Position numbers and translations under genes: made by a program. Below are positions 3,750 to 26,771 of a stretch of 26,771 bases of DNA, one piece after another. The stretch's first letter is position 1. Each line of letters begins with the position of its first letter. The notes beneath the pieces were generated by a model, which saw only the letters and a program-made list of their open reading frames with translations, was not told the DNA's origin and did no database searches. This stretch comes from a virus: the IMG/VR virus record IMGVR_UViG_3300023179_000438, positions 1-26,771 of that record. One strand, 5' to 3'.

Positions 3750-4013
3750 TTATCTCTCCACCATAGCGATCCAATCCTGATGTATCACATTGTTGTTACC
3801 GTAGCCCTGACCCTTGATCTTGGAGATGTCCCACAGCACCTTATCTCCAACCTTGATGTCTTCGCTCAACTTGTCACCGATAGAGATGACCGTACTCCAC
3901 ACCATCTGTGAACGAATCTTCTCGGTGTAGATTACTCCACTCTCTGTGGTCTTCTCGCCACCGCCAACGGTCTGAACTTCAATCCACTTGCCAATAGGTC
4001 TTAACTTGTTCAT
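3750..4013 (-). CDS. GroES-like co-chaperonin (functional analogue of T4 gp31)
   Basis: A small co-chaperonin of 87 residues that would cap the host GroEL ring during folding of phage proteins such as the major capsid protein. The N-terminus RPIGKWIEV matches the GroES beta-strand. It is followed by a polar glycine-rich stretch (GGGEKTTESG), the hydrophobic tripeptide VIY at the position of the GroES mobile-loop IVL, and the barrel motif IKVGDKVLW. It is shorter than GroES (97) and T4 gp31 (111). The ATG overlaps the stop of the upstream methyltransferase (ATGA), and the downstream glycosyltransferase starts 11 bases after its stop. Expression is therefore probably coupled to the methyltransferase pair. 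The family is well supported. Client specificity is inference. Confidence 0.8.
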   Translation of the reverse strand: MNKLRPIGKWIEVQTVGGGEKTTESGVIYTEKIRSQMVWSTVISIGDKLSEDIKVGDKVLWDISKIKGQGYGNNNVIHQDWIAMVER

Positions 4014-5919: not shown

Positions 5920-6397
5920 ATAGAACTTTCTTGATCTTGTTCCAGTACTTGATAGTTTTACTCTTCTTGTATCCTGTTGGACCGCCGTTGTGAATGCGAG
6001 CAAGACTCTCGTAGGTCGCGCCCTTGGGAGCGTAACGATTGAGGTATGCTACCACAATTCGTTCTGCGTATGCACGGTTCTTGCAGTCTGAGTACTTGCC
6101 ACCGATTGATGGATCATACTCAACAGCATCTCGCCAATACACTTCCCAAGTTTGGTACGGACCAATCGCCTTGCCGTTGTCACCAACAGCATCGTCTTTG
6201 CCGCCGCTCTCGACTTCAAGCATCGCGTCCAACAACTGACGGGTCTGTTGCGGAGTTAGTCCACGGATTGCTAATGAAGTTTTCGAACTTTGACTTTGGA
6301 GTGTGCTTGCAGCAACCGTTGCCGTAGACAACATCAGAAGGCTTAACGCCAACAATGAACTTCGGAGTAGACTGTGCCGATTCAGTATTCTTGCCAT
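5891..6397 (-). CDS. Secreted invertebrate-type (i-type) lysozyme-like endolysin
   Basis: A peptidoglycan hydrolase of 168 residues, probably the phage endolysin. Residues 1-31 form a signal peptide: basic MARILNRHSLLR, hydrophobic core LLALSLLMLSTATVA, then AAS. The mature part matches i-type lysozymes (destabilase family). EVESGGK at 61-67 corresponds to the catalytic Glu region, VGDNGKAIGPYQ at 71-82 to the second acid and GPFQ motif, YWRDA follows, and ARIHNGGPTGYKKSKTIKYW at 133-152 is the family signature. Most of the disulphide cysteines of animal enzymes are missing. The first 180 bases, encoding the signal peptide and linker, overlap the upstream gene in another frame. An alternative ATG at 6409 would add four residues. 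T4 uses an unrelated lysozyme, so this is a replacement. Export by Sec is inferred from the signal peptide. Confidence 0.8.
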   Translation of the reverse strand: MARILNRHSLLRSSLLALSLLMLSTATVAASTLQSQSSKTSLAIRGLTPQQTRQLLDAMLEVESGGKDDAVGDNGKAIGPYQTWEVYWRDAVEYDPSIGGKYSDCKNRAYAERIVVAYLNRYAPKGATYESLARIHNGGPTGYKKSKTIKYWNKIKKVLYGRQQIPNH

Positions 6398-12644: not shown

Positions 12645-12716
12645 AGCCACCTATGGGAATCGAACCCATGATCTTCGCTTTACAAAAGCGACGCATTACC
12701 TCTCTGCTAAGATGGC
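12645..12716 (-). tRNA. tRNA-Thr(UGU)
   Basis: Cloverleaf with acceptor GCCATCT pairing AGGTGGC (one G-U), anticodon stem TCGCT/AGCGA with loop TTTGTAA, and T-arm ATGGGTTCGATTCCCAT. The CCA end is not encoded. It reads ACA and related threonine codons. Confidence 0.92.
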
Positions 12717-12718
12717 AG

Positions 12719-12791
12719 TAGTCCCTATAGGATTCGAACCTATAACTTTTACCGTGTAAAGGTAACACTCTAGCCGTTGAGTTAAGGGACC
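12719..12791 (-). tRNA. tRNA-Val(UAC)
   Basis: Acceptor GGTCCCT/AGGGACT (first pair G-U), anticodon stem TTACC/GGTAA with loop TTTACAC, T-arm TATAGGTTCGAATCCTATA. The 3' end is 2 bases from tRNA-Thr, so the two are probably cut from one precursor. Confidence 0.92.
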
Positions 12792-12796
12792 ATTAG

Positions 12797-12878
12797 TGTC
12801 GGTGGAGGGAGTCGAACCCACACGCCTTGCGGCAAAAGAACCTAAATCTTTCGTGTATGCCAATTTCACCACACCGAC
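12797..12878 (-). tRNA. tRNA-Leu(UAG)
   Basis: Acceptor GTCGGTG/CACCGAC, class II D-arm, anticodon stem AAAGA/TCTTT with loop TTTAGGT, and variable arm GCCGCAAGGC. The T-stem has one mismatch (GTGGG against CCCTC). It is the intact partner of the remnant at 11648. Confidence 0.88.
12808..12871 (-). repeat. 64-bp direct repeat, copy 2 (in the intact tRNA-Leu)
   Basis: Identical to 11657-11720. See the tRNA-Leu remnant. Confidence 0.9.
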
Positions 12879-12884
12879 GATTTG

Positions 12885-13412
12885 TTATTTAGCCCGTGCC
12901 TTCTTCTTCTTCGCCAATGACTTGTTGACCTTGGCAACCATTTCCTTCAGTTCAGAAGGAGAGAATGCGTTTGTCTTCAGCAGATCGTTTCTTCTCTTCT
13001 CCTCGTCCTTCTCTGCCTTCATTTCCCTCGTCTTTTCACCGGCATCAAGTTGCTTGCAGTATTCAACGAGAGCAGCCTGACAAGCCTCTTCGCTAACGAA
13101 AGGACCATTGAAGTCTGCCCATGTTTCCTGCCAGAAAATCCAACCACCATGCTTGGGGGAATACTCTACGGGATCGTGCCGACCGATAGCGATGAACCCC
13201 TTATCGCTTGCCTTGGGCTTACCCCACTCGCACATAACTTTCTCGTTGTTCTTGACCCACAGTTCAACATCAAAGTCGAAAGGGTAATGCTTGAGAAGAG
13301 CACGGGCTTTCTTGCGGATTTCGTCCTTGCCCATCTTGGTATTGCTCATGAGTTCCTTGAGAAACTCTGAAGTCCTCACAACTGCCCAATAGGATTCATA
13401 TGGTAGTGTCAT
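12885..13412 (-). CDS. Hypothetical protein, N-terminus like BPSL0761 family; basic coiled C-terminus
   Basis: A 175-residue protein. The first 60 residues (LPYESYWAVVRTSEFLKELM, then IRKKARALLKHYPFDFD) resemble short bacterial proteins of the BPSL0761 family, which have no known role. The middle carries WIFWQETWADFNGPF, and the C-terminal 60 residues are a lysine- and glutamate-rich helix ending KKKKARAK. I start at the ATG at 13412 (AAGGT nearby), since the upstream in-frame stretch lies over the preceding gene and is arginine-rich without family similarity. It overlaps that gene by 17 bases. The stop TAA is part of a CTAAATA box just before tRNA-Leu(UAG). Confidence 0.75.
   Translation of the reverse strand: MTLPYESYWAVVRTSEFLKELMSNTKMGKDEIRKKARALLKHYPFDFDVELWVKNNEKVMCEWGKPKASDKGFIAIGRHDPVEYSPKHGGWIFWQETWADFNGPFVSEEACQAALVEYCKQLDAGEKTREMKAEKDEEKRRNDLLKTNAFSPSELKEMVAKVNKSLAKKKKARAK
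12886..12892 (-). promoter_or_regulatory. Possible late-type promoter box before tRNA-Leu(UAG)
   Basis: CTAAATA ends 7 bases before the 5' end of tRNA-Leu (12878), so a transcript would begin almost at the mature tRNA. The box coincides with the stop codon of the upstream gene, so chance is a real alternative. Confidence 0.3.
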
Positions 13413-13719
13413 TCTGTACCTTCTTCTTTCTAGGCTTTCTCTTCGCCTCACGAACCTTCTCTATTGCATCCTGCTTGTTCAGGCTGTCAAAGTATTCCTT
13501 GTTCTTTGAAGGCTCCCCATTATGTTCATCACGAAAGCAAGGGAAGCACAAAAAAGTTTCATCTTTTCCTTCATCTCCCTTGGCGGGGACTTCGTGTTTG
13601 CAAGTCCTACACACCAAGGTCTTGTTCGTCTTCACCATAGAAATGAACTCATCCGCCCACTTCTGATGAATGGTGGTGAAGGTTTCATCCTTGCCGATAG
13701 TATAGATTGGGGTTGCCAT
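13396..13719 (-). CDS. Small zinc-ribbon-type protein
   Basis: A 107-residue protein with two paired cysteines, CRTC (residues 37-40) and CFPC (58-61), spaced as a treble-clef or zinc-ribbon. A strongly basic C-terminus (EAKRKPRKKKVQ) follows, and could bind nucleic acid. I do not recognise the family. The ATG lies only 7 bases after the -10 box of a consensus promoter, so its mRNA may be leaderless. No Shine-Dalgarno sequence is visible. It overlaps the next gene by 17 bases. Confidence 0.75.
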   Translation of the reverse strand: MATPIYTIGKDETFTTIHQKWADEFISMVKTNKTLVCRTCKHEVPAKGDEGKDETFLCFPCFRDEHNGEPSKNKEYFDSLNKQDAIEKVREAKRKPRKKKVQNDTTI

Positions 13720-13726
13720 TACGAAT

Positions 13727-13755
13727 ATTATACCGCGAAGTCAGACCTGTGTCAA
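13727..13755 (-). promoter_or_regulatory. Consensus sigma-70 promoter (TTGACA-17-TATAAT)
   Basis: TTGACA at 13750-13755 and TATAAT at 13727-13732 with a 17-base spacer, a perfect match to consensus. The predicted start is at or within one or two bases of the ATG at 13719. The -35 box lies in the 3' end of the upstream small gene. Confidence 0.85.
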
Positions 13756-13926
13756 GGTCTTCTTTCGGTTATTTCGTTCATGCGCCTTCCACAAGCCTTG
13801 GGTAAATCCCGCGTGTTGCCCGTGCGCGTACCCGCGAGAGTATGACCAATTGTGCAACTTGAAAGCACCTGCTGTTAGTGCGGACAGTAGAGAGATGATG
13901 AGGGATGTGGTTGTGATGGTTTCCAT
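13741..13926 (-). CDS. Small membrane protein
   Basis: A 61-residue protein with one hydrophobic segment near the N-terminus (TSLIISLLSALTAGAF), then a Tyr-Gly-His-rich stretch (SYSRGYAHGQHAGFTQG) and a basic tail. The segment SRGYAHGQHAGF is encoded by a GC-rich alternating tract (13808-13839). No ribosome site is clear, and the frame extends upstream only across tRNA genes, so the ATG at 13926 is the reasonable start. Function unknown. Confidence 0.55.
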   Translation of the reverse strand: METITTTSLIISLLSALTAGAFKLHNWSYSRGYAHGQHAGFTQGLWKAHERNNRKKTLTQV

Positions 13927-13963
13927 GTCAGTAGATATAAGAGTAAACTGAATCTTTACAAAG

Positions 13964-14049
13964 TGCGAGAGGTGGGATTCGAACCCACACGCCTTTAGGG
14001 GGCAGCGGATTTTGAATCCGCCGTGTATGCCAATTCCAACCACTCTCGC
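13964..14049 (-). tRNA. tRNA-Leu(CAA)
   Basis: Class II tRNA. Acceptor GCGAGAG/CTCTCGC, anticodon stem GCGGA/TCCGC with loop TTCAAAA, long variable arm (TGCCCCCTAAAGGCG), T-arm GTGGGTTCGAATCCCAC. No encoded CCA. Confidence 0.93.
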
Positions 14050-14053
14050 ATTA

Positions 14054-14126
14054 TAGGACCGATGGGATTCGAACCCATACTTTGCGGATTTTAAATCCGC
14101 TGACTCTGCCGTTGGTCTACGATCCC
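14054..14126 (-). tRNA. tRNA with UAA anticodon (Leu by codon) on a class I body
   Basis: Acceptor GGGATCG/CGGTCCT, anticodon stem GCGGA/TCCGC with loop TTTAAAA, T-arm ATGGGTTCGAATCCCAT. The anticodon UAA reads UUA (Leu), but the variable loop is only about 5 bases instead of the long arm of leucine tRNAs. It starts 2 bases downstream of the predicted transcript start of its own promoter. Confidence 0.85.
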
Positions 14127-14134
14127 ATACAGGT

Positions 14135-14162
14135 AGTATAGCATCTAACCAAGTGTTGTCAA
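14135..14162 (-). promoter_or_regulatory. Sigma-70-type promoter for the tRNA(UAA)/tRNA-Leu(CAA) pair
   Basis: TTGACA (14157-14162) and TATACT (14135-14140) with a 16-base spacer. The start is expected near 14128, two bases before the 5' end of the tRNA at 14126. The -35 box directly abuts the 3' end of the upstream Met-like tRNA. Confidence 0.8.
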
Positions 14163-14235
14163 CTCCCAAGGTTGGATTCGAACCAACGACTTATCCCGTA
14201 TGAAAGGATTGTTCTGCCAACTGAACTACTTCGCC
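14163..14235 (-). tRNA. tRNA-Met(CAU)-like with defective acceptor stem
   Basis: D-arm GTTCAGTTGGCAGAAC, anticodon stem ATCCT/GGGAT with loop TTCATAC, and T-arm GTTGGTTCGAATCCAAC are all sound. The acceptor halves GGCGAAG and CTTGGGA pair at only four of seven positions (3, 5, 6 and 7). It may be a decaying gene, or the sequence of one half may have been replaced. Confidence 0.65.
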
Positions 14236-14238
14236 AAA

Positions 14239-14310
14239 CTGGCTCGGATGGATTCGAACCATCAACCAACAAATTAACAGTTTGCCGCACCACCGTTGTG
14301 CTACGAGCCA
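14239..14310 (-). tRNA. tRNA-Asn(GUU)
   Basis: Acceptor TGGCTCG/CGAGCCA fully paired, anticodon stem GCAAA/TTTGT with loop CTGTTAA, T-arm GATGGTTCGAATCCATC. Lies 3 bases from the Met-like tRNA. Confidence 0.92.
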
Positions 14311-14315
14311 AACGG

Positions 14316-14519
14316 TCAAACCTTGTATCTGGCTCTCTCGTATGCTGTTGGCTCTCGCCCAAACTTCTCCTCTTTAATCCAAGCGGGAAGGATGCCATGA
14401 TCCTCCAACTTACGAAGAGTTTCCTTCTTTGCGTTGAGTAGACCTTCCTGCCTCTTCAACTTGCGAGCCTCATACTTCCGCTTGCGACGGCGGCGTAGTT
14501 CACGAAACTTGTTAATCAT
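14316..14519 (-). CDS. Small highly basic protein
   Basis: A 67-residue protein, about 40% Lys plus Arg in its first half (INKFRELRRRRKRKYEARK), then a helix and the tail FGREPTAYERARYKV. It could bind RNA or DNA. The ATG overlaps the stop of the upstream gene (8-base overlap) and follows AAAGG. It ends 6 bases before the 5' end of tRNA-Asn. Family not recognised. Confidence 0.65.
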   Translation of the reverse strand: MINKFRELRRRRKRKYEARKLKRQEGLLNAKKETLRKLEDHGILPAWIKEEKFGREPTAYERARYKV

Positions 14520-15117
14520 TGTCTATACCTTTCTTCTTCATGAGATGACGCACCCAAATCTGTGTAACTGTCATCGGGTGATGAAACTCTTCAAACTTGA
14601 AACCACGGATGGGTTCCTTGTTCTTGGTCTTCAATGCTGTGTAGATACCGTTCAAACGATTAGGATGGAACTCACCAACAGACTCTTCCTTGCCCATGCC
14701 GGGCCATGCGTCTGCCTTGGTTCCGATTACAAAACCCTGTGGAGACTTGGGAGACTTGAAGAAGATAGCGTCCTGCTCGTACTTCGTTCCCATCTTCTTG
14801 GCAAAGCCCTTGATTGCTCCGACCTTTGCATCGGAGTCATCGTCACCGATAACCATGAAAGACTCTTCGGTAACTCTACGCTTCTTGCCATCTCCAAGAT
14901 CCTCTTCATAAGTTCCAACGACCTTCTCAAAGCCAAACCCTGCGGCACGAATGTCGTTCTCAAGTTTCTTGTTCTGCGTTCGGTTCATTTGCAAAGAGTT
15001 GCTACCACGAAACGCTGTGAGGATAGCGAACGGTCTCTTCTCGACATGAGAGAAAACGCGAGACAATGATATCTCGGTGATTAGTTCTCTAGTGTATGTC
15101 TCCATCTCTTCAGCCAT
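14512..15117 (-). CDS. DUF3293-like protein
   Basis: A 201-residue soluble protein. The order FAILTAFRGSNS, then NRTQNKKLENDIRAAG, then VTEESFMVIGDDD and YEQDAIFFKSP resembles the DUF3293 family. In that family, a strand with a LTA motif, an N/R-rich helix, and an E-S-F strand precede a Q-x-A-V/I-F strand. No biochemical role is established for the family. The start ATG overlaps the stop of the preceding gene and has AAGGGA upstream. A second in-frame ATG four codons later is also possible. Confidence 0.7.
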   Translation of the reverse strand: MAEEMETYTRELITEISLSRVFSHVEKRPFAILTAFRGSNSLQMNRTQNKKLENDIRAAGFGFEKVVGTYEEDLGDGKKRRVTEESFMVIGDDDSDAKVGAIKGFAKKMGTKYEQDAIFFKSPKSPQGFVIGTKADAWPGMGKEESVGEFHPNRLNGIYTALKTKNKEPIRGFKFEEFHHPMTVTQIWVRHLMKKKGIDND

Positions 15118-15292
15118 TTGTTAGTCCCTTTATCTCTGCGTTTGCTTGCTTTAGAGCCAAGTAAGCCTTCTTGATCTCCTCAAACGCCTGCATCGTTCCG
15201 AACTTGCCCTCATTCTCCCACTCAACTATCCGTGCAGCCTTGCGAGCAAACTCTCCGATGTTTGCGTGTGTAGCGAAATCTTCAATGACCAT
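15110..15292 (-). CDS. Small helical hypothetical protein
   Basis: A 60-residue protein, almost entirely helical by composition (IEDFATHANIGEFARKAAR, then FEEIKKAYLALKQANAEIKG). I start at the ATG at 15292, which has GGAG 6 bases upstream. A TTG further upstream at 15322 would add 10 residues. The stop overlaps the start of the DUF3293-like gene. No family recognised. Confidence 0.65.
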   Translation of the reverse strand: MVIEDFATHANIGEFARKAARIVEWENEGKFGTMQAFEEIKKAYLALKQANAEIKGLTNG

Positions 15293-15338
15293 CTCTTTCT
15301 CCAAATGCGACCCGCCAAACAACGCGACGGCTCTAGTT

Positions 15339-15362
15339 GTGATATAGTGTTTAGTATATCAC
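15339..15362. repeat. Perfect 8-bp inverted repeat with 8-base spacer
   Basis: GTGATATA (15339-15346) and TATATCAC (15355-15362) are exact inverses around GTGTTTAG. It sits between two small genes and overlaps the stop codon of the 46-residue gene. No T-run follows, so an operator is likelier than a terminator. Confidence 0.6.
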
Positions 15363-15499
15363 GCCTTTCGCTTCGGATCAAGTTTAACTTTTCGCTTCTT
15401 GGTCTTCTTTTTGAAAATCGCATCCCAATTTTTAGACCACAAATCGTAGTCTACCTTGCGATAACGATCTCCCTTGCCCGCATCATGCTTACCGCCCAT
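15359..15499 (-). CDS. Very small basic phage protein (46 residues)
   Basis: Starts MGGKHDAGKGDRYRKVDYDL, continues WSKNWDAIFKKK and ends in a basic tail. I recall short proteins with this GKGD-(K/R)YR...W...NW..IF pattern in T4-like phages. Their function is unknown. It has one of the best ribosome sites in the window (AGGAGG, 5-6 bases before the ATG at 15499), which supports real translation despite the length. It follows a tRNA-Pro gene by 16 bases. Confidence 0.75.
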   Translation of the reverse strand: MGGKHDAGKGDRYRKVDYDLWSKNWDAIFKKKTKKRKVKLDPKRKA

Positions 15500-15513
15500 A
15501 CAAACCTCCTATA

Positions 15514-15588
<75 letters not shown>

Positions 15589-15591
15589 TAA

Positions 15592-15663
15592 AGCGGATGA
15601 AGGGAGTCGAACCCTCAACATTTGGCATGGAAGGCCAACACTCTGCCATTGAGTTACATCCGC
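15592..15663 (-). tRNA. tRNA-Gly(UCC)
   Basis: Acceptor GCGGATG/CATCCGC, anticodon stem TTGGC/GCCAA with loop CTTCCAT, T-arm GAGGGTTCGACTCCCTT. Three bases separate it from tRNA-Pro. Confidence 0.94.
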
Positions 15664-15679
15664 ATAGTGACATTAGTAG

Positions 15680-16732
15680 TTAGGTGAAGATATTGTTGAG
15701 TTGACGATTAACCCTCACAAATGTTGTGCATTTTGGCAAGTCCTTAAGTCTCTCTGCACCAACATAAGTGCAAGCAGAACGAACTCCACCAAGTATATGT
15801 TGGATCGTTTCATCAGCAGGACCGCTAGGCTTGACATAAACCTTCTTGCCTTCAGATGCACGGTAAGTAGCAACACCGCCTGAGTACTTCTGCATAGCAT
15901 CAGCAGAACTCATGCCATAGAACTCCTTACCGTTCTCTGTGTTCTCTCCTGCTGCCTCGTCCGCGCCCGCGAGCATACCCCCGATCATAACGAAGTCCGC
16001 TCCCGCACCATATGCCTTTGCAACATCTCCGGGGCAGGTGCATCCTCCATCAGCCATTACAAATCCACCAAGACCGTGAGCAGCATCAGCACACTCCATG
16101 ATCGCAGACAGTTGGGGATAACCAACGCCCGCTACCTTTCGCGTTGTGCATACAGAGCCGGGTCCAATACCAATCTTGACAATGTTGGCTCCTGCGAGAA
16201 TTAGTGCCTCCGTCATTTCTCGGGTGACTACATTACCTGCAATGATGATATGGTTTGGGAAGAAGCCACGAATACTGCTAACAAAGTTTACGAACTTCTG
16301 CGTGTATCCGTTGGCAACATCAATACAGATGAACTTGATCTGTGTGTACATACCAAGAACCTCTTGTGCCTTTAGCATCTCCTTCATGTTGCTGCTGCTA
16401 TCTCCCATACCCATCGTGTAGATTATGTTGCATGAGATTGCGTTGGGCAACCAATCATGAATGTTGGCTTCCTTCCACTCACGAATAGGAACATGCTTGT
16501 GTATCGCACCCATAGCCTCCCACTTGGATAGGGCTTTAGCCATAGGTATAGTTCCCGTAGAGTCCATGTTTGCCGCTACAAGAGGAATGCCTGTCCATGT
16601 CTCTTCGCCTTTAGGCAAAGTGAACTTGAATGTGCGGTTTAGATCAACCTTGCTTCGGCTCTCAAGATTGCTTCGCTTTGGGCGAATCAGCACATCTGCG
16701 AAATCCAACTTGATGTCTTCTTCAATCTTCAT
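15680..16732 (-). CDS. guaC: GMP reductase
   Basis: Converts GMP to IMP with NADPH, releasing ammonia, and so moves guanine nucleotides back toward the adenine branch. The 350 residues follow E. coli GuaC (347) from the first residue (MKIEEDIKLDFADVLIRPKR) to the end. Landmarks are AANMDSTGT, FICIDVANGY, the active-site loop GIGPGSVCTTR with the catalytic Cys at about 195, ADGGCTCPGDVAKAYG, and the reductase-specific YRASEGK. The absence of a CBS domain and the close length separate it from IMP dehydrogenase. GGAG lies 9 bases before the ATG. It is flanked by tRNA genes on both sides. GuaC is rare in T4-like phages as far as I know. Confidence 0.93.
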   Translation of the reverse strand: MKIEEDIKLDFADVLIRPKRSNLESRSKVDLNRTFKFTLPKGEETWTGIPLVAANMDSTGTIPMAKALSKWEAMGAIHKHVPIREWKEANIHDWLPNAISCNIIYTMGMGDSSSNMKEMLKAQEVLGMYTQIKFICIDVANGYTQKFVNFVSSIRGFFPNHIIIAGNVVTREMTEALILAGANIVKIGIGPGSVCTTRKVAGVGYPQLSAIMECADAAHGLGGFVMADGGCTCPGDVAKAYGAGADFVMIGGMLAGADEAAGENTENGKEFYGMSSADAMQKYSGGVATYRASEGKKVYVKPSGPADETIQHILGGVRSACTYVGAERLKDLPKCTTFVRVNRQLNNIFT

Positions 16733-16754
16733 AGTGTAGACTCCATAATGAGAA

Positions 16755-16878
16755 AGTGGGATACGGGATTCGAACCCGTTGCCGATGTTTTGTTTTACTT
16801 ACATGTACTCAGTAACCAACACATGCCACCGACAATCCTACCATTGGCGTTACTGCTTTTGCCGAAGAACCATCCCAC
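16755..16878 (-). ncRNA. tRNA-like RNA of 124 nt: acceptor stem and T-arm with an enlarged central domain
   Basis: A perfect 7-bp acceptor-type stem (GTGGGAT with ATCCCAC) and a perfect T-arm (ACGGG, TTCGAAT, CCCGT) are present. The part between them is about 45-50 bases too long for a tRNA. It contains a 7-bp helix (16827-16833 with 16781-16787, two G-U pairs), and inside that a 5-bp helix (16821-16825 with 16802-16806). I cannot find a normal D-arm or anticodon arm. T4 encodes two stable RNAs of similar size and unknown function in its tRNA cluster, which may be an analogy. A tRNA carrying an insertion is the main alternative. Confidence 0.6.
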
Positions 16879-16959
16879 AAAGAAAGGCAGTAGACCCGAT
16901 GCTCTCTAGTGGCCATCTAGAAGAAACATCCAACTACGCCCCCTAACTGCATCATACAC

Positions 16960-16966
16960 TATTTAT
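16960..16966 (-). promoter_or_regulatory. Late-type promoter box upstream of the tRNA-like RNA
   Basis: ATAAATA in the context GATAAATAG. Transcription would start near 16953 and read first an 80-base segment (16879-16953) and then the tRNA-like RNA. It touches the palindrome that starts at 16965. Confidence 0.5.
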
Positions 16967-17055
16967 CCCATCGAATTCGATGGGATTGCCCCATCGTTAG
17001 TGGATGGGTAGGTTGATGGACAGGCAGAGTTTTTGATGGGGTTAACAATCCCATC
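16965..17055. repeat. Cluster of CCCATC/GATGGG hexamers with a perfect 22-bp palindrome
   Basis: A perfect 22-bp palindrome centred on GAATTC spans 16965-16986. CCCATC or its complement recurs at 16967-16972, 16979-16984, 16990-16995, 17003-17008, 17035-17040 and 17050-17055. The last two form a stem (TTGATGGG with CCCATCAA) around a 9-base loop. The stretch from 16879 to 17066 contains no gene that I can support. Confidence 0.8.
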
Positions 17056-17066
17056 AAGGTTTTGAG

Positions 17067-17139
17067 TGACCCTACGGAGATTCGAACTCCGGTCAAGAGG
17101 ATGAAAGCCTCCTATCCTAGACCACTAGACGATAGGGCC
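17067..17139 (-). tRNA. tRNA-Glu(UUC)
   Basis: Acceptor GGCCCTA/TAGGGTC (one G-U), anticodon loop CTTTCAT, T-arm CGGAGTTCGAATCTCCG. It is preceded by its own promoter. Confidence 0.93.
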
Positions 17140-17153
17140 AAGTTGTCTAGAGT

Positions 17154-17182
17154 ATTATAGCCGACGAACCGCTCGCCGTCAA
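17154..17182 (-). promoter_or_regulatory. Sigma-70-type promoter for tRNA-Glu
   Basis: TTGACG (17177-17182) and TATAAT (17154-17159) with a 17-base spacer. The start is expected near 17147, 8 bases before the tRNA. Confidence 0.8.
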
Positions 17183-17185
17183 CAA

Positions 17186-17554
17186 CTATTCTAGACGGAG
17201 TAGGTATTTTGTTCTGTTTAGTACGCCAACCATCTCATCACGAATGTTGAGAAGATCGGTGTCTGTGTTTGGGTTTAACTTCTTCGGTAGTTCGTTTGTA
17301 AGGAACTCAATAGCCATTTGGACTATTCCCATAGAATTGGAATCCTTGTAATTACTTACGCTGAACGAGAAGTTAGGATTACCCAAGGTGTTACCATACT
17401 TCCCTGCATGAACCTCAACAAACTTGTCTACGAGAGGATCAAGGGCATCGTACAACTTACCTAGAGCCTTATGCTCTTCATATGACTTCGTTTGCCAATG
17501 AAGAACTCTTACTTGAGATTGAAGTTGTAGGAAGAATGATATGTGCATACTCAT
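17186..17554 (-). CDS. DUF5856-like helical protein, possibly ferritin/Dps-like fold
   Basis: A 122-residue helical protein beginning MSMHISFFLQLQSQVRVLHW, then QTKSYEEHKALGKLYDALD and LVDKFVEVHAGKYG. The HWQT...EHKALG...Y..L..L.D.FVE...GKYG pattern is one I associate with DUF5856 proteins of phages. The spacing of His and Glu recalls the ferritin-like four-helix bundle, although metal binding is only inference. A second ATG two codons later is an alternative start. The ribosome site is weak. It ends just before the tRNA-Glu promoter. Confidence 0.75.
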   Translation of the reverse strand: MSMHISFFLQLQSQVRVLHWQTKSYEEHKALGKLYDALDPLVDKFVEVHAGKYGNTLGNPNFSFSVSNYKDSNSMGIVQMAIEFLTNELPKKLNPNTDTDLLNIRDEMVGVLNRTKYLLRLE

Positions 17555-17569
17555 ATTTAGTATTCCAAG

Positions 17570-17654
17570 CGGGCAGAGAAGGATTCGAACCCTCGGAGGC
17601 GTTAACCTCTGCGGTTTAGTAGACCGCTGCATTAGACCACTCTGCCATCTGCCC
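17570..17654 (-). tRNA. tRNA-Ser(ACU)
   Basis: Class II tRNA. Acceptor GGGCAGA/TCTGCCC, anticodon stem GCGGT/ACCGC with loop CTACTAA, variable arm AGAGGTTAACGCCTCC, T-arm GAGGGTTCGAATCCTTC, discriminator G. The anticodon reads ACU rather than the usual GCU. Confidence 0.88.
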
Positions 17655-17658
17655 GAAG

Positions 17659-17741
17659 TGCGCGGGGTAGGATTCGAACCTACGAAGACGAAAGCCAACA
17701 GATTTACAGTCTGTCCCGTTTGACCACTCCGGAACCCACGC
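17659..17741 (-). tRNA. tRNA-Tyr(GUA)
   Basis: Class II tRNA. Acceptor GCGTGGG/CCCGCGC, anticodon loop CTGTAAA, variable arm TTGGCTTTCGTCTTC, T-arm GTAGGTTCGAATCCTAC. Confidence 0.93.
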
Positions 17742-17746
17742 TAAAG

Positions 17747-17835
17747 CGGACAGGGAAGGATTCGAACCCTCGGAAGGGCATTCACCCTTCAGCGGTTTTC
17801 AAGACCGCCGCATTAAACCGCTCTGCCACCTGTCC
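17747..17835 (-). tRNA. tRNA-Ser(UGA)
   Basis: Class II tRNA. Acceptor GGACAGG/CCTGTCC, anticodon stem GCGGT/ACCGC with loop CTTGAAA, variable arm GAAGGGTGAATGCCCTTC, T-arm GAGGGTTCGAATCCTTC, discriminator G. Confidence 0.94.
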
Positions 17836-17842
17836 TTAAAAT

Positions 17843-18052
17843 TCATTCCGACAAGAATCTACGGCTCTCGTTGACTTCGTGGCGAGCCTTTTCAATGATG
17901 TTTCTCTCGGCTTGCATATACCCCTGACGGTACTCCATCCAAAACACCTCTGTGGTCGCATGAGTGATCGAACGATCTGCTAGACCATTCATGCGATCAT
18001 TGTAGCCTTCTTTATACCCTTGTCCGGGCGTGTATGAGTTCATGCTTGTCAT
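17843..18052 (-). CDS. Small hypothetical protein
   Basis: A 69-residue soluble protein with repeated tyrosine-glycine motifs (PGQGYKEGYNDRMNG, then EYRQGYMQAERN) and a charged helical C-terminus. The GYKEGYNDRM motif occurs in short phage and bacterial proteins of unknown role. The start at 18052 has GGAGG 5 bases upstream. The longer frame would run into tRNA-Ala. It lies in an alternating tRNA/small-gene array. Confidence 0.7.
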   Translation of the reverse strand: MTSMNSYTPGQGYKEGYNDRMNGLADRSITHATTEVFWMEYRQGYMQAERNIIEKARHEVNESRRFLSE

Positions 18053-18067
18053 GCTAACCTCCTGTAG

Positions 18068-18139
18068 TGGACCGAAGAGGATTCGAACCTCCAACCCATG
18101 CCTTGCAAAGGCATTGTTCTCCCGTTGAACTATCGGCCC
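18068..18139 (-). tRNA. tRNA-Ala(UGC)
   Basis: Acceptor GGGCCGA/TCGGTCC, anticodon stem TGCCT/AGGCA with loop TTGCAA region giving UGC, T-arm GGAGGTTCGAATCCTCT. Its 5' 10 bases overlap the end of the upstream coding gene. Confidence 0.92.
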
Positions 18140-18336
18140 ATGAATTCTATTCCGTCAACCTTTGTGAATGAAGCAGCGTAATCTGCGGCTCTCTTCCAAA
18201 GGTCAGGATCCATCTCCTTGACATACTCACTAAACTTCATTCCAAACAACATGATGGCATGATGATACTTTTTGACCGTTTCAGGGTCTCGTATCTCATT
18301 ACCGCTATCATCGGTTGGATAGAAGTTGCTTCCCAT
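18130..18336 (-). CDS. Small hypothetical protein overlapping tRNA-Ala
   Basis: A 68-residue protein: acidic start (GSNFYPTDDSGNEIRDPETV), then a helical part (YHHAIMLFGMKFSEYVKEM). The ATG at 18336 has GGAGG upstream; longer versions would run through tRNA-Gln. The stop codon at 18130-18132 lies inside the acceptor stem of tRNA-Ala, so tRNA cleavage would remove the end of this message. Function unknown. Confidence 0.7.
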   Translation of the reverse strand: MGSNFYPTDDSGNEIRDPETVKKYHHAIMLFGMKFSEYVKEMDPDLWKRAADYAASFTKVDGIEFMGR

Positions 18337-18350
18337 TAGTACCTCCAAAA

Positions 18351-18421
18351 TTGCCCGACCTAGATTCGAACTAGGACACAGAGGACCAAAATCTCTGGTG
18401 CTACCGTTACACCATCGGGCA
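18351..18421 (-). tRNA. tRNA-Gln(UUG)
   Basis: Acceptor TGCCCGA/TCGGGCA, anticodon loop TTTTGGT, T-arm CCTAGTTCGAATCTAGG. The lowest anticodon-stem pair is an A-C mismatch. Confidence 0.9.
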
Positions 18422-18442
18422 AGTGCTTCCATGCACTATTAA

Positions 18443-18463
18443 CCCGTCACATCAAGCGACGGG
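18443..18463 (-). terminator. Possible weak terminator hairpin
   Basis: CCCGTC and GACGGG form a 6-bp stem overlapping the stop of the membrane protein gene at 18452. It is followed on the minus strand by TTAATAGT. The T-run is poor, so any termination would be partial, letting transcription continue into tRNA-Gln. Confidence 0.35.
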
Positions 18464-18661
18464 GCTGTTGCCGAATAGTCCCGCCACGACATGAGCGATA
18501 GCAACGACAGCATTCTTCAGCCACACGGCTCCGTTCCAAGCGAACGGAAGAAGGGCCAGAGTGACGAGAAGGCTACGGTTGACACCAACCTTGCTGAGAA
18601 GGCAGTTCAACTTATCACAGCCACCAGTAACAGGGCATGTGCCCGATTCAAACTTTGCCAT
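18452..18661 (-). CDS. Small membrane protein with cysteine-rich N-terminus
   Basis: A 69-residue protein. Residues 1-22 contain three cysteines (SGTCPVTGGCDKLNCLL), then two hydrophobic helices (SLLVTLALLPFAWNGAVWL and a second, AVVAIAHVVAGLF). It is probably an inner membrane protein; a holin-like role is possible but unsupported. The ATG at 18661 has AAGGAG 7-8 bases upstream. A longer in-frame version would overlap the preceding gene. Confidence 0.75.
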   Translation of the reverse strand: MAKFESGTCPVTGGCDKLNCLLSKVGVNRSLLVTLALLPFAWNGAVWLKNAVVAIAHVVAGLFGNSPVA

Positions 18662-18707
18662 TTGTTTTCTCCTTATGTTAAAGTTGTAAGGGATGGCGAT
18701 CCCTCTA

Positions 18708-19073
18708 TCAGTTCCGCTTCTTTGACTTGCAGCAAGCAGTTTCCGCTTCTGCAATCTCGTAGAAACGATCCTGACTATTGTAGACCTCTTCTTCCAAGTT
18801 GTCAATCATGGAAATAAGGGTACGATCCATTTCCTCAATCTTGCTAGTCAAACCATTGACCTCACTATTGATTGAGTTGTGAAGTAGGCTAACCTCTCCG
18901 TCAACACGACGATCAACCTCACCGATGCGATTCAGGAGTTCGTCGCGTACAGTAGAGAGAGTTCGCTGATTCTCTTCATCCCGACGCTTGGCATTGGTAG
19001 CGATTGTACCAATGAAAGTTACGAGATTGGTTGCGAGTGAAAGACCAAGGATACCGTAAAGAAGTGAGTCCAT
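18708..19073 (-). CDS. Membrane-anchored coiled-coil protein
   Basis: A 121-residue protein with an N-terminal membrane segment (LLYGILGLSLATNLVTFIGT) followed by a long heptad-rich helix (residues 30-105). It ends CCKSKKRN. The topology, with a short anchor and a long coiled coil, is that of inner-membrane spanin-like or structural adaptor proteins; I cannot choose. The ATG at 19073 has AAAGGAG upstream. A TTG at 19091 would put the ribosome site inside the gene and is rejected. A late-type box lies 33 bases before the ATG. Confidence 0.75.
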   Translation of the reverse strand: MDSLLYGILGLSLATNLVTFIGTIATNAKRRDEENQRTLSTVRDELLNRIGEVDRRVDGEVSLLHNSINSEVNGLTSKIEEMDRTLISMIDNLEEEVYNSQDRFYEIAEAETACCKSKKRN

Positions 19074-19105
19074 AATGTAATCTCCTTTCAAGAGATGGGT
19101 GCTTG

Positions 19106-19112
19106 TATTTAG
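19106..19112 (-). promoter_or_regulatory. Late-type promoter box
   Basis: CTAAATA directly abuts the 3' end of tRNA-Lys (19113) and lies 33 bases before the ATG of the coiled-coil membrane protein. The distance fits a short leader with the AAAGGAG site. Confidence 0.6.
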
Positions 19113-19184
19113 TGCCCCCGACAGGACTTGAACCTGTAACTTACCGATTAAAAGTCGGCTACTCTACCATTGAGTTACGGAGGC
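19113..19184 (-). tRNA. tRNA-Lys(UUU)
   Basis: Acceptor GCCTCCG/CGGGGGC, anticodon stem CCGA/TCGG with loop CTTTTAA, T-arm ACAGGTTCAAGTCCTGT. Confidence 0.92.
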
Positions 19185-19187
19185 GAG

Positions 19188-19261
19188 CGTTCCCGACAGG
19201 ATTCGAACCTGTGACTTGTTGCTTAGAAGGCAACTACTCTATCCAACTGAGTTACGGGAAC
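19188..19261 (-). tRNA. tRNA-Arg(UCU)
   Basis: Acceptor GTTCCCG/CGGGAAC, anticodon stem TTGC/GCAA with loop CTTCTAA, T-arm ACAGGTTCGAATCCTGT, discriminator G. Confidence 0.93.
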
Positions 19262-19813: not shown

Positions 19814-19841
19814 ATTATAGCACATCCCACCGTCAAGTCAA
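19814..19841 (-). promoter_or_regulatory. Sigma-70-type promoter at the start of the Fragile-X-F gene
   Basis: TTGACT (19836-19841) and TATAAT (19814-19819) with a 16-base spacer. The predicted start coincides with the ATG at 19807. The -35 box overlaps the end of the upstream gene. Confidence 0.75.
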
Positions 19842-20273
19842 GGGTCTGTATTTCGCATTTCCTCTTGCGATCAGGGGCAGACCCAAGGCAGTAGAACCCG
19901 TTGCTTTGGCTATGGCTTTGTATGCCTTTTTGACAGCCTTCATGGAATCTCCGTGGGTATCCGCGATAACTGCCTTTTCTTTTTCCTTGGAATCGGTAGC
20001 CATTGCAATCCATCCACCACTCTTTTTCCCCTTGTTCTTTTTTAGAGTCCCATAATACTTACGGTTGCTATTAGGCTCTCGTAGTGTCCAGTCGTAAGCC
20101 TCCTCACCTCGCCTGTGCTTCTTGTGCTTCCGGACCATGACTGTCACGCCGGGGGTCTTATGGCGTAGGTCGGCAGGGCGAACAACAACTCTAGCAGATG
20201 GATCAATAGCCTCAACAGCATCCTGCTTCTTGGCCTCTCCCAAATCCCACTTTAATTGCTTGAACGATTTCAT
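19833..20273 (-). CDS. MKSF-type basic protein, probable packaged internal protein
   Basis: A 146-residue very basic protein starting MKSFKQLKWDLGEAKK. The first residues resemble the T4 capsid-targeting peptide (MKTYQEFI-x-E), and LGE followed by Ala fits the T4 prohead protease cleavage rule. The rest has a strand-rich, lysine-rich domain (VMVRKHKKHRRGEEAYDW, RKYYGTLKKNKGKKSGGWIA) and a helical end. Possible DNA binding in the head is inference. The start overlaps the previous gene (ATGA) without a clear ribosome site. Function unknown. Confidence 0.7.
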   Translation of the reverse strand: MKSFKQLKWDLGEAKKQDAVEAIDPSARVVVRPADLRHKTPGVTVMVRKHKKHRRGEEAYDWTLREPNSNRKYYGTLKKNKGKKSGGWIAMATDSKEKEKAVIADTHGDSMKAVKKAYKAIAKATGSTALGLPLIARGNAKYRPLT

Positions 20274-20683
20274 ACGGAGGTTGAGGTTCTTTTGATCTTG
20301 CCGTGTAGTTGACGAGAGAACAAGTTGGAACGATAGTCAAGAGGTTTGCCGATTACCTTATTTTGTTGTGCCCAATTTCCACCCGTGACTCTAGACAAAA
20401 CAAGGTCTCTAATCTCCACAACATCTCCAACACGAAGCGGAGGCAGTTCTTCCTGTCGTTGTCCATTGCCGATATAGCCCATCAGCATCCACCCCTCACT
20501 TGTCTTTATACGAACCCGCCATCTCCAAACTTTAGTTTTATACTTGTAGTTCTTGATGGGTCTTTCGTATACAGCCACAGCACTCACAACAGTTCCGCTA
20601 ATGTTAAAACGACTGACGAAATACTCGCCACGGGGTGTTGGAGCCGCATCCTGTTCTACAAGATGTTGGCTAAACGACTTCAA
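20270..20683 (-). CDS. MKSF-type protein starting at TTG, probable packaged internal protein
   Basis: A 137-residue protein with N-terminus (M)KSFSQHLVEQDAAPTPRGEY. The start codon is TTG, overlapping the stop of the upstream gene (TTGA). I accept it because the MKSF...LVE peptide is shared with three other proteins here. The rest is strand-rich (NISGTVVSAVAVYERPIKNY, KVWRWRVRIKTSEGW, RVGDVVEIRDLVLSRV) and may form an OB- or SH3-like barrel. That fold call is tentative. Its end overlaps the next gene by 4 bases. Confidence 0.68.
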   Translation of the reverse strand: MKSFSQHLVEQDAAPTPRGEYFVSRFNISGTVVSAVAVYERPIKNYKYKTKVWRWRVRIKTSEGWMLMGYIGNGQRQEELPPLRVGDVVEIRDLVLSRVTGGNWAQQNKVIGKPLDYRSNLFSRQLHGKIKRTSTSV

Positions 20684-20917: not shown

Positions 20918-23089
20918 TTACTTGTTATGCATCTTCCATGCGGTAGCGTACATTACCTCTTTCCAACGCTCTCCATACTTCTTCTTGAATGCAGCCTTCA
21001 CATCAGGGTCTTTGCTGAACTTGCGAGCCGGACCTGTTGGAGGTGACTTCTCGTTCACTTCCTGAGCATCCTCAAAGACTCCGTAACGACTAGCAGAAGG
21101 ACCGCCTGCGTTTGTGGGAGTAGACTTGGTGTGTGTCTTTCCTGTTACTGCATTCTTGGTGGGGTTGTTGCTTATTACCTTCTTGATTATAGCATTAACC
21201 TTCTGCTGTGTCTGCACGGGTGTTGGCTTCTTTACTGCAACACCATTTAGAGTGAATGGGCGTTCTGCCATTCCATAAGAACGATTGCCCTGTGTTACAG
21301 TCAAGTAGAAACCAACATCAAAGTAGTCAGTTTGAATGTCGCTGCGATCCCAGTTCTTCTTGTTGATTGTGTTGAGAATCTTCTTTAGAATCTCACCGTT
21401 CTTGTAGTTCATTGGGTAGTAGTGATTGATGTCTGCGAAAGGCAATGGTGTTCCGTCGTGTTTGGTAGCAAACGCCACAGGACCGGAAACGATTGCTACA
21501 CGAAGACTGGAGTAACTGTTGCGCTCTCTAGCAACCATGAACTTGAACTTGGGGAATTCCTTCTTGAGATCGTCACGGATTACCTTGATTGCTTCTGTGC
21601 TAATGTATGCTTCGCTGATATCCTCTCCCTCGGTTTCGGTCTCTTCCTTCTTGATATCAGATGGGTGAAGGACATTGACAATCTTACCACTAGCGGTTTC
21701 AATCGCAATCGCCTTCCACTTCTTGTTCTTTAGGTCATCATCCAACATATGGTTGATGTGAGCAGGGATAGCGGCAGCACCACTTACCTTCTTCTGTAAT
21801 AGTGCGCCGGGTCCATCTGCTTTCATGACAACGATTGTGAACGGACCTTGGATGTCCTTTACATTCTTAAGGATTTTGCTGAAAGGAATGCGAGCCTCGT
21901 TTACTGACTCTGAAGTAGCCATGTGTGTGCCTAGCGATTCCTTCTTCACTATCTTTGCAATCTCTGCCTTGAGATAGTCCATGAGGTTCTTGGGTGCGCG
22001 ACGGAACCAATCCTTATAATCATCAAGCCAATCCTCTACGGTTCCCTGCGTAGGTGCAACTCTGGCTTTCATTCCGCCCTTCTTGTATGCTGCTTCTAGA
22101 TCATCCAAGAATGAATCTACTGTCTTCTTGTCAATAGTTCCTGAACTTGATGACCAAGATGCTTCTTGGATTTCAACACTCTCCTTCATGCCGATTACAG
22201 TAACCTCGCCACCCGACCAACTTCCCTTAGAACCAACCTTTGCTTCTGCCTTCTTGTCAAGACCCTTGACCATGTTTTGGAAGTCGCTTGGGCTGTAGAC
22301 CTTGATCTCCGAAGACTCAGGACTCTTCTCGCTTGTGAAGACGATGACACTTCCTGTTGGCTTTGAATCAAGTTGAGACTTCATCTTACGGAAGTTGCTT
22401 ACCATAGATGAACCTCCCGCATTCTTAATCATTGTCTCTGCACCTGCCATGAAGCGAACACCTTCAGTCACCTCTTCCTCAACATCCTCAACTTCCTCCA
22501 CCTCATCCTCTTCAACGAAGCGGTTCATGCCACGCTTGTCCCCGTTGAACTCTGATGACTTGTTCTTCTCTGTCTTTGTGTTGCCCTTCTTGACAACCTT
22601 TAGTTCTTCCTTGGCTTCATCAACAACGACCTCTTCTACCAACTCCTTGTGGTTGTCCATGATCCACTTTGCTGCTGCTGACAACATTTGGTTTGGCTTA
22701 TACTTCACATACGCCCGCGTGTACCCGCCCGTGGGTGGGGTTCCGACCTTCTCTGGCCAAAGGTTAAGTGCCAACTTACCCTCACCGCGACTGCCCAAGT
22801 ACAACTGATTGGGTACTGTCGTTACGGCTGTGCTCTTGACTATGGTGATGAACCCGATCTCCTGACCGCCCTTTCCCTTGACTATCCATACCGACCTACT
22901 GCCTTCCTTGTATGGGCTGAAAGTAATCTTTCCAATAGTCTTCTCTCCTGCCTCGTTGAGTTCCATACTAACGACATCCACTCTACCTGCCGACAGGGTG
23001 TTGTTATACAGCCTGTTAATGTGACGGAGGGATTCGTTGATGTTCTTCTTCTGCGAGGATAGTGGCTTACGGAAATTGAAGTCGCTCAT
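20918..23089 (-). CDS. 723-residue modular protein with LPD29-like domain and repeated hydrophobic-x-Glu sites; putative internal-head polyprotein
   Basis: Sites fitting the T4 prohead protease rule ([L/I/V]-x-E before a small residue) divide it: INE19-S, LNE46-A, VDE158-A, VTE209-G, IQE309-A, VNE398-A, ISE493-A; VNE680 precedes Lys. They fall mostly at the borders between module-like stretches. Residues 494-600 (YISTEAIKVIRDDLKKEF, PKFKFMVARE, LRVAIVSGPVAF) resemble LPD29, a domain found in polyvalent proteins delivered by mobile elements. Residues 190-209 are an acidic linker, and the C-terminus (FKKKYGERWKEVMYATAW) is a motif I recall at the end of other phage proteins. A late-type box lies about 30 bases upstream, and AAGGA precedes the ATG. 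Virion packaging and processing are inference. Confidence 0.8.
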   Translation of the reverse strand: MSDFNFRKPLSSQKKNINESLRHINRLYNNTLSAGRVDVVSMELNEAGEKTIGKITFSPYKEGSRSVWIVKGKGGQEIGFITIVKSTAVTTVPNQLYLGSRGEGKLALNLWPEKVGTPPTGGYTRAYVKYKPNQMLSAAAKWIMDNHKELVEEVVVDEAKEELKVVKKGNTKTEKNKSSEFNGDKRGMNRFVEEDEVEEVEDVEEEVTEGVRFMAGAETMIKNAGGSSMVSNFRKMKSQLDSKPTGSVIVFTSEKSPESSEIKVYSPSDFQNMVKGLDKKAEAKVGSKGSWSGGEVTVIGMKESVEIQEASWSSSSGTIDKKTVDSFLDDLEAAYKKGGMKARVAPTQGTVEDWLDDYKDWFRRAPKNLMDYLKAEIAKIVKKESLGTHMATSESVNEARIPFSKILKNVKDIQGPFTIVVMKADGPGALLQKKVSGAAAIPAHINHMLDDDLKNKKWKAIAIETASGKIVNVLHPSDIKKEETETEGEDISEAYISTEAIKVIRDDLKKEFPKFKFMVARERNSYSSLRVAIVSGPVAFATKHDGTPLPFADINHYYPMNYKNGEILKKILNTINKKNWDRSDIQTDYFDVGFYLTVTQGNRSYGMAERPFTLNGVAVKKPTPVQTQQKVNAIIKKVISNNPTKNAVTGKTHTKSTPTNAGGPSASRYGVFEDAQEVNEKSPPTGPARKFSKDPDVKAAFKKKYGERWKEVMYATAWKMHNK

Positions 23090-23117: not shown

Positions 23118-23124
23118 TATTTAT
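23118..23124 (-). promoter_or_regulatory. Late-type promoter box for the 723-residue protein
   Basis: ATAAATA in the context GATAAATAG, 28 bases before the ATG at 23089. It overlaps the stop codon of the preceding gene. Confidence 0.55.
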
Positions 23125-23441
23125 CTCTTGGTAGTCTGCCAATCAGGAGTTAGTGGCAAAGACTTGTTAGTTACTGCTTTCTTGCTATTTGCTCCTGCGC
23201 TCTTCATCCAACGAAGAACCATATCCCGTCTGCTGTTGGCTTCAATGGCATTCTCAACCTCCCACGGGAAGTGTTTACGGTACTTACGATCCTTACGGTC
23301 CTTTGGATCATCCGTATCTGTAAAGTCCTCAACATCAAAATCAGCACGAACCGTATCTACCTGAAAGCCTAGACCATAGGTAAACATTGCTGTGCTGTTT
23401 GGCATATCCTCTTCTTTGATGTATTGCCGAAAAGACTTCAT
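23121..23441 (-). CDS. MKSF-type protein, probable packaged internal protein
   Basis: A 106-residue protein starting MKSFRQYIKEEDMPNSTAMF. The targeting-like peptide and IKE-E cleavage-like site match the other MKSF proteins. An acidic stretch (FDVEDFTDTDDPKDRKDRKY) and a helical section (WEVENAIEANSRRDMVLRWM) follow. The WEVENAIEANSRRD region reads as a conserved helix, but I do not recognise the family. The ATG is one base from the stop of the lipoprotein gene. Confidence 0.7.
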   Translation of the reverse strand: MKSFRQYIKEEDMPNSTAMFTYGLGFQVDTVRADFDVEDFTDTDDPKDRKDRKYRKHFPWEVENAIEANSRRDMVLRWMKSAGANSKKAVTNKSLPLTPDWQTTKR

Positions 23442-24203: not shown

Positions 24204-24210
24204 TATTTAT
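24204..24210 (-). promoter_or_regulatory. Late-type promoter box for the holin-like gene
   Basis: ATAAATA lies 26 bases before the ATG at 24178 and directly after the T-run of the terminator of the preceding gene, so it restarts transcription. Confidence 0.65.
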
Positions 24211-25576: not shown

Positions 25577-26771
25577 TTACTCTCCTACTGCTAGTATTGT
25601 TGCTACGATCTTCATGCCTGTGCTGAAAGTCTTCTCGCCTCTCTTGCCGGGTGCGATACTTCCAAGACCCTTGTATGTTGATGACATCTGATCCAACATC
25701 CCCTTGGGCTGTACCACGATGTTGTGTGAGACATCACCGTTGGCCGATGGATCATAGATCGCGGTGTGGATGATTGCACAAGGAGCGAAGTACTTCTTAC
25801 CGAGAACCTGTGCCTTGATATAGTCATAGTTGACATCGTTGTAGCCGACGCTATGCAGCCACTCTATCGCTCCACTCTTAGTTAGAAACTCACGAAGACC
25901 GCTCCACTCCTTTAGTTTAGTGACGAACTTCAATTGAGGTTTCTTCTTACTATCAAGGATATCCTTTACTGTAATGGCTTCTTTAACAACCTTGTGTTTA
26001 GGAACAAGGATGCTTGCAGGCTCACCGACATCCACCACATATCCGCCACCAGACTGTCTTGCCTTGTCTGTTCCGCCATCATCGTAACGAACAATCTTGC
26101 CCTTTACCATCTTGCCCTTATGTGGAACCTTGACAGTATCCCCTGCACTAAGTTCGTTAATCTGAATTACTTCATCAAGGTTCTCTTCAGTCAATCGCAT
26201 TCCGTTAGAGAGATACAGCCCACGCTCCAGTCCTCTAAACTGTAGTTGTGCTCCATCTCCACTCTTGTTTAGAACAATGCGACCGTTCTTGATGCACTCC
26301 TGTGCTCCCATACCAATCCCTGCTGTTGAGCAACCCCACATGTTTGTGTTCTTGGTGAACTTGAACAAGCAGATGACGCTATAGCAAGCATCATATGCGT
26401 GACGGAATGCGTTCTTGTCACCCTTTGTAAACTCCTTGGTGCAAGTCACGACTCTACCATCGGCATCTACTCTGACTCCAAGTTGCTTTGCTTTTTCCTT
26501 TACCGCCTTGACTATAGCCATAGCAGACATGACTCTTGCGTTGTAGTCTTTGCTACTTGCTGTTGCAACAGGAGCCTCGCCCAAGGTTTCTCCTTCGGGA
26601 GTATACTCTGCAAAGACCTTTACCATACCCAACGCAGAGTGTATGAGGTGGTCAATCTCTGTTGCGTGGTGTGGGTCTAGTGCTATGTGGTGAACTACCT
26701 TGTCTAGAATTTTCATTAGACCTGTTCTGTGGGCAATGGTTACGCCCATAGCAGCGAGGGTTGTCCCCTTG
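25577..26771 (-). CDS. Large hypothetical protein, 5' end possibly outside window; SH3/KOW-like module; possible internal protein
   Basis: The frame is open to the right edge. The first ATG inside is at 26749 with a poor ribosome site, so the gene may begin outside. From that ATG there are 390 residues. Residues 202-255 (AGDTVKVPHKGKMVKGKIVR, then YVVDVGEPASILVPKHKVV) form a small SH3 or KOW-like barrel. LGE58-A and VKE257-A fit the same cleavage pattern as in the 723-residue protein and fall at the border of a helical N-terminal part and before a C-terminal module (258-390). I do not recognise a family. A packaged role is inference from these sites and the neighbourhood. Confidence 0.7.
   Translation of the reverse strand, partial: KGTTLAAMGVTIAHRTGLMKILDKVVHHIALDPHHATEIDHLIHSALGMVKVFAEYTPEGETLGEAPVATASSKDYNARVMSAMAIVKAVKEKAKQLGVRVDADGRVVTCTKEFTKGDKNAFRHAYDACYSVICLFKFTKNTNMWGCSTAGIGMGAQECIKNGRIVLNKSGDGAQLQFRGLERGLYLSNGMRLTEENLDEVIQINELSAGDTVKVPHKGKMVKGKIVRYDDGGTDKARQSGGGYVVDVGEPASILVPKHKVVKEAITVKDILDSKKKPQLKFVTKLKEWSGLREFLTKSGAIEWLHSVGYNDVNYDYIKAQVLGKKYFAPCAIIHTAIYDPSANGDVSHNIVVQPKGMLDQMSSTYKGLGSIAPGKRGEKTFSTGMKIVATILAVGE

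Follow-up and report, generated by a model that had tools for sequence, protein, structure and literature searches.

A 723-residue open reading frame on the minus strand of the window, by which we mean the whole 26.8-kb virus record analysed here, probably encodes a packaged polyprotein that is cut by the prohead protease of a T4-related phage. As originally predicted, the chain is a single frame (ATG at 23089, stop at 20918-20920), and all eight motifs taken to resemble prohead-protease sites are present, ending at residues 19, 46, 158, 209, 309, 398, 493 and 680. The parts of the gene are listed below, with a hyphen marking each candidate cut, together with their counterparts in two related contigs, L001 and L003.

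23118-23125, minus strand: T4-type late promoter core GATAAATA, lying 29 bases upstream of the ATG and also present in L001
23098-23102, minus strand: AAGGA, a ribosome-binding-like site read from the sequence
20918-23089, minus strand: candidate packaged polyprotein, 723-residue frame (ORF and motif scan)
23033-23089, minus strand: leader, residues 1-19, MSDFNFRKPLSSQKKNINE, ending in the candidate site INE-S (LNE-A in L001, LSE-A in L003)
22952-23032, minus strand: short segment, residues 20-46, ending in LNE-A (also LNE-A in L001)
22616-22951, minus strand: module 1, residues 47-158, ending in VDE-A (VGE-A in L001)
22463-22615, minus strand: charged linker, residues 159-209, ending in VTE-G (VTE-G in L001)
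22163-22462, minus strand: module 3, residues 210-309, ending in IQE-A (in L001, PINE-K, an extra module of about 85 residues, then LNE-A)
21896-22162, minus strand: module 4, residues 310-398, ending in VNE-A (in L001, four residues deleted, TSE-A)
21611-21895, minus strand: module 5, residues 399-493, ending in ISE-A (LSE-A in L001)
21050-21610, minus strand: LPD29 module and low-complexity tail, residues 494-680, ending in VNE-K (INE-V in L001)
21425-21601, minus strand: match to the Pfam profile PF18847 (LPD29), residues 497-555
20921-21049, minus strand: C-terminal 'SPP...YATAWK' module, residues 681-723, widespread, with matches in many contigs

What can be read directly from these sequences is the modularity of the chain, the conservation of its sites, the match of one site to the N-terminus of a solo gene and the presence of gp21 in related contigs. 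The site that matches a solo N-terminus is that at residue 493. The module that follows it had been likened to LPD29, and it indeed matches PF18847 at residues 497-555 (E 4.3e-7; score 31 bits, curated cut-off 27) and phrog_10415 (E 5e-19), the latter match beginning at residue 494. In 17 further IMG/VR loci that were checked, this module is a stand-alone gene with its ATG directly before AYIS, and in eight annotated phages the solo LPD29 gene likewise begins with M-AY there, one being annotated with a short 5' extension. The solo proteins thus start M-AYISTE where both polyproteins read [IL]SE-AYISTE. Since the Glu of the site stands where the solo genes have Met, a cut at 493 would recreate the solo N-terminus. 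Initiator Met is removed before Ala, and the N-terminus left by such a cut would equal that of the solo protein after Met removal. Given eight sites along 723 residues, the solo start would fall exactly on one by chance about 1% of the time. The solo genes carry no targeting leader; hence the polyprotein looks like a means of packaging a gene which in other phages is expressed within the cell. A search with the LPD29 module alone for more LPD29 polyproteins returned none. A fold search of the module gave no significant PDB match (the best was polymerase beta, E 0.03, TM 0.34) and two matches below 0.001, both to phage proteins without known function.

The sole full-length relative, and the only one recovered by a leader-based search, is the homologue in L001 (contig IMGVR 3300045125_000034), which covers residues 1-723. 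It is broken by frameshifts that resemble assembly errors, and it was therefore read piece by piece. A joint alignment of the fragments with the full chain misplaced the short pieces and was discarded. L001 keeps seven of the eight sites, with P3 exchanged among Ile, Leu and Val: INE becomes LNE at 19, IQE becomes LNE at 309, ISE becomes LSE at 493 and VNE becomes INE at 680. LNE-A at 46 and VTE-G at 209 are identical, and VDE-A at 158 becomes VGE-A. The exception is site 398, where a four-residue deletion leaves TSE-A. At the 309 join, L001 reads SVEPINE-KYYRK, followed by about 85 extra residues and then KEENLNE-ADWWSSSG; the extra module is inserted exactly at the junction, with a candidate [IL]NE site flanking each end. 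Two further relatives share the C-terminal module. In L003, the same type of leader and the C-terminal module enclose a different middle module bounded by LVE-A and LSE-V, and L002 encodes a small leader-plus-module protein that carries the C-terminal module.

The C-terminal module was confirmed in at least 185 matched IMG/VR stretches, and the join that precedes it is strongly conserved. Glu occupies P1 in 44 of 44 anchored copies and P3 is aliphatic in 42 of them, while P2 varies freely. (Three automatic anchors landed on a later SP motif; those copies read LDE-VSPP and are counted so among the 44.) In a non-redundant set, 16 of 17 representatives have an aliphatic P3 against 4.3 expected, a value reached in none of 20,000 draws. 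The conservation at this join could be structural instead; however, the same motif stands at joins with unrelated downstream sequence, which argues for a protease site over a structural constraint. The module is also found in chains bearing enzymes, namely cytidylyltransferase, RimK ATP-grasp, Zn protease and DUF5824. One such chain, of 1300 residues (L004:6791-10690), runs through cytidylyltransferase, RimK ATP-grasp, ATP-dependent Zn protease, DUF5824, the C-terminal module and DUF3140, with some sites close to domain borders. Separately, small proteins in L010 and L012 show repeated EQ[IL]DE-[VI] joins between short modules.

The eight sites are unequal. Judged by their sequence and conservation, the candidate sites at 19, 46, 309, 493 and 680 are well supported, those at 158 and 209 plausible, and that at 398 doubtful. 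The published cutting rule of gp21 is L/I-x-E (PMC9026906). It fits sites 19, 46, 309 and 493; P3 is Val at the other four (158, 209, 398 and 680), which lie outside the rule, although the Val at 680 becomes Ile in L001. Val at P3 is also absent from the gp23 leaders examined, which counts against the Val sites, and site 209 sits within an acidic run. In number, [LIV]xE[AGSK] occurs 8 times in the frame against 3.7 in shuffled sequences (p 0.03); for the strict T4 form, [LI]xE, the figures are 5 and 5.9 (p 0.73), with no enrichment. Counting alone is thus insufficient for a polyprotein claim, and it was dropped as proof. Moreover, since [LIV]xE is found inside the folded enzymes of related polyproteins too, the motif by itself does not define a cut site. 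A single-sequence fold of the whole protein has a mean pLDDT of 39.5 and serves at most as a rough coil map. In this very low-confidence model, coil covers seven of the eight sites (shift test 0.04), and the mean coil run at the sites is 29.6 against 12.6 (test 0.01), a placement that weakly favours their being cut. The original proposal that most sites lie between modules is partly supported by the insertion at 309 and the solo start at 493 and weakly, in that model, by the coil placement, with motif numbers adding only marginally.

The segments of the chain are mutually unlike, and with LPD29 and the C-terminal module recognised, the protein has the multi-domain make-up of the polyvalent type. 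In searches module by module, modules 1, 3, 4 and 5 gave no PHROG match or weak, non-significant ones, and modules 3 to 5 have no homologues among annotated phages. This lack of recognisable homologues counts against the polyprotein reading. Pfam found LPD29 only, with no embedded peptidase or other recognised effector domain, and the PHROG search of the frame returned no peptidase- or effector-type family. Such embedded domains are common in polyvalent proteins, if not universal.

Evidence that the protein is destined for the head comes from its promoter and its neighbours. A leader of the type MSDFNFRKPL...INE-S is common to the frame, L001, L002 and L003, although in L002 there is no clear site at the first position. 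For comparison, T4 IPIII starts MKTYQEFIAE-A, and the T4 IPI leader consists of 19 residues ending in ITE before Ala. The leader of the frame is equal in length to that of IPI, but MSDFNFRKPLSSQKKNINE matches neither T4 capsid-targeting sequence (IPIII MKTYQEFIAE or the IPI leader), a mismatch that counts against the polyprotein reading. The late promoter core recurs before the homologues as CATAAATA in L003 and CCTAAATA in L002. Across the window the ATAAATA core is found 4 times against 2.7 by chance; as it is not enriched, the argument from the promoter depends on its position. Three neighbouring genes begin with leaders that resemble capsid-targeting sequences.

23121-23441, minus strand: 106-residue gene with the capsid-targeting-like leader MKSFRQYIKE-E (MKSFRQFIKE-E in a relative)
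20270-20683, minus strand: 137-residue gene with a TTG start and the leader (M/L)KSFSQHLVE-Q (LKSFFAHLTE-Q in a relative)
19833-20273, minus strand: 146-residue gene with the leader MKSFKQLKWDLGE-A (MKSYKQLKWDLGE-A in a relative)

In all three leaders, P3 and P1 are kept in the relative while other leader residues change, and MKSFRQYIKE and MKSFSQHLVE match the IPIII sequence in length and in how they end. For IPIII, the first ten residues suffice for targeting (PMC9026906).

The genomic setting is that of a T4-type phage. The window carries a family B polymerase, a gp44-like clamp loader and a gp45-like clamp. Identity between this polymerase and those of the best-ranked phage records, which are all from cyanophages, does not exceed 48.7%, and the virus is thus a distant T4 relative. 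On the minus strand, 16 tRNA genes (12645-19261) adjoin the leader-bearing genes; in T4, ipIII and ipI likewise stand beside a tRNA cluster. Head genes were recognised neither in the window nor in the contig of L001, where PF03420, PF07068 and S-RSM4 gp13 to gp23 found nothing along its 145 kb; this contig was read as a fragment. Because both are fragments lacking head genes, this phage's own protease is not seen. Among the contigs recovered with the C-terminal module, 19 were examined, and gp21 (PF03420) is present in 12 of these. In gp23 proteins from genes close to it, [LI]xE stands where the mature protein should begin (LLSE-V, LLGE-A, FLLE-T and LFE-A, for example); this point is placed by comparison with T4 gp23, which reads LTE-A there.

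The chain shares features with several known systems. As in T4 IPI, IPII, IPIII and Alt, a short N-terminal leader ends in [LI]xE, with a small residue next, and the late promoter core, the location near a tRNA cluster and, in related contigs, a gp21-type protease are all features of the T4 internal proteins. The latter are made as one protein per gene with a single leader cut, plus a C-terminal cut in Alt. Unlike them, the 723-residue gene strings together several modules that differ from one another, each join carrying a site, behind a leader of different sequence. In having several [LI]xE sites per chain it resembles the T4 core proteins gp22, gp67 and gp68, which gp21 cuts in several places and which are for the most part removed (PMC9026906). 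It is unlikely, but conceivable, that the protein is itself a core or scaffold component, cut up to leave the head with nothing delivered, and its high Lys and Glu content would suit that role. However, scaffold fragments have no need of folded domains; here the joins fall at the borders of modules, one of them where a solo gene starts, the modules are mutually unlike, one is an independent gene elsewhere, and the related polyproteins bear enzymes such as cytidylyltransferase, RimK ATP-grasp and Zn protease.

LPD29 itself is one of the domains of polyvalent proteins, for which injection has been proposed (PMC5512222). The chain resembles the large polyvalent proteins of Iyer et al. 2017 (PMC5512222) in containing LPD29, in its many domains and in its presumed delivery with the DNA. 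The analogy to viral polyproteins has already been drawn for them, with release ascribed to embedded peptidase domains (PMC5512222); by contrast, no peptidase domain was found in this chain, and its sites may instead fit a head protease. A packaged polyvalent protein that acts as one chain, with one or two N-terminal cuts and inner motifs that are functionless linkers, would account for the LPD29 domain, the marginal motif count and the loss of site 398. We consider this slightly less probable again, given the exact match of the solo N-terminus at 493, the extra module at 309 flanked by sites and the invariant Glu before the C-terminal module. Least probable is a cytoplasmic protein with motifs arising by chance, for which the lack of recognised head genes in the window, the replication genes and tRNAs of the region and the leaderless solo LPD29 genes would speak, against the late promoter core kept in homologues, the three neighbours with capsid-targeting leaders and the equivalent position of ipIII and ipI in T4.

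Taken together, a packaged precursor, as first proposed, is favoured by the solo N-terminus at 493, the 309 insertion, the Glu before the C-terminal module, the neighbouring leaders, the late promoter and gp21 in 12 of 19 contigs; that its sites are unequal tempers the original claim. The precursor would be transcribed late and brought into the prohead core by its leader, and the phage's gp21-type prohead protease would cut after [I/L/V]-x-E between the modules, releasing several small proteins, of which LPD29, at least, is an independent gene elsewhere. The folded modules retained in the head would then enter the next host along with the DNA, where they may serve as effectors. The cut sites seem to be where modules come and go, so that the precursor may act as a gene-packaging cassette.

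Some of this has precedents: T4 has both capsid-targeting leaders and cutting by a head protease, and injected multidomain polyvalent proteins are described in PMC5512222. The phage P1 proteins DarA and DdrB, as summarised in PMC5512222, undergo proteolytic processing before head packaging; this the 723-residue chain is predicted to share with them, although the domains differ and that summary does not describe them as a multi-site string. Our literature search, in which subscription journals were thinly covered, returned no description of a packaged polyprotein cut by a prohead protease, and an earlier account may exist. More broadly, and with somewhat less than an even chance of being right, we suggest a widespread class in T4-related phages in which a head-targeting leader is followed by ordinary phage genes that have been captured and linked through prohead-protease sites, to be released inside the head and swapped at these sites, so that a particle delivers several proteins from one gene. 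If true, the one-gene-each internal proteins of T4 and the ideas on polyvalent proteins would be united by a head-protease-cut precursor, and a leader plus [ILV]xE joins would make a simple sequence rule for injected proteins that predicts their mature N-termini. With the C-terminal module in so many IMG/VR stretches, some beside cytidylyltransferases and RimK-like ligases, many hidden injected proteins are possible.

A second cleavable precursor is possible within the window itself.

25577-26749, minus strand: 390-residue gene with the candidate sites LGE-A, LDE-V, INE-L and VKE-A, their positions kept in a relative

A further late promoter core, CATAAATA at 24204-24210 on the minus strand, lies about 26 bases before a 142-residue membrane-protein-like gene at 24178. 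At 4010-6003, also on the minus strand, two adjacent DNA methyltransferase-like genes with SPPxYG-type motifs were read by eye. Finally, T4-like targeting leaders were seen on several genes of a phage with a named host, Methylophilales phage Melnitz-3 (L134 and L168): MQGFKTFLSE-A, MKKFSEIIE-A, MKNFKNHIAE-E and LINFSKYITE-D.
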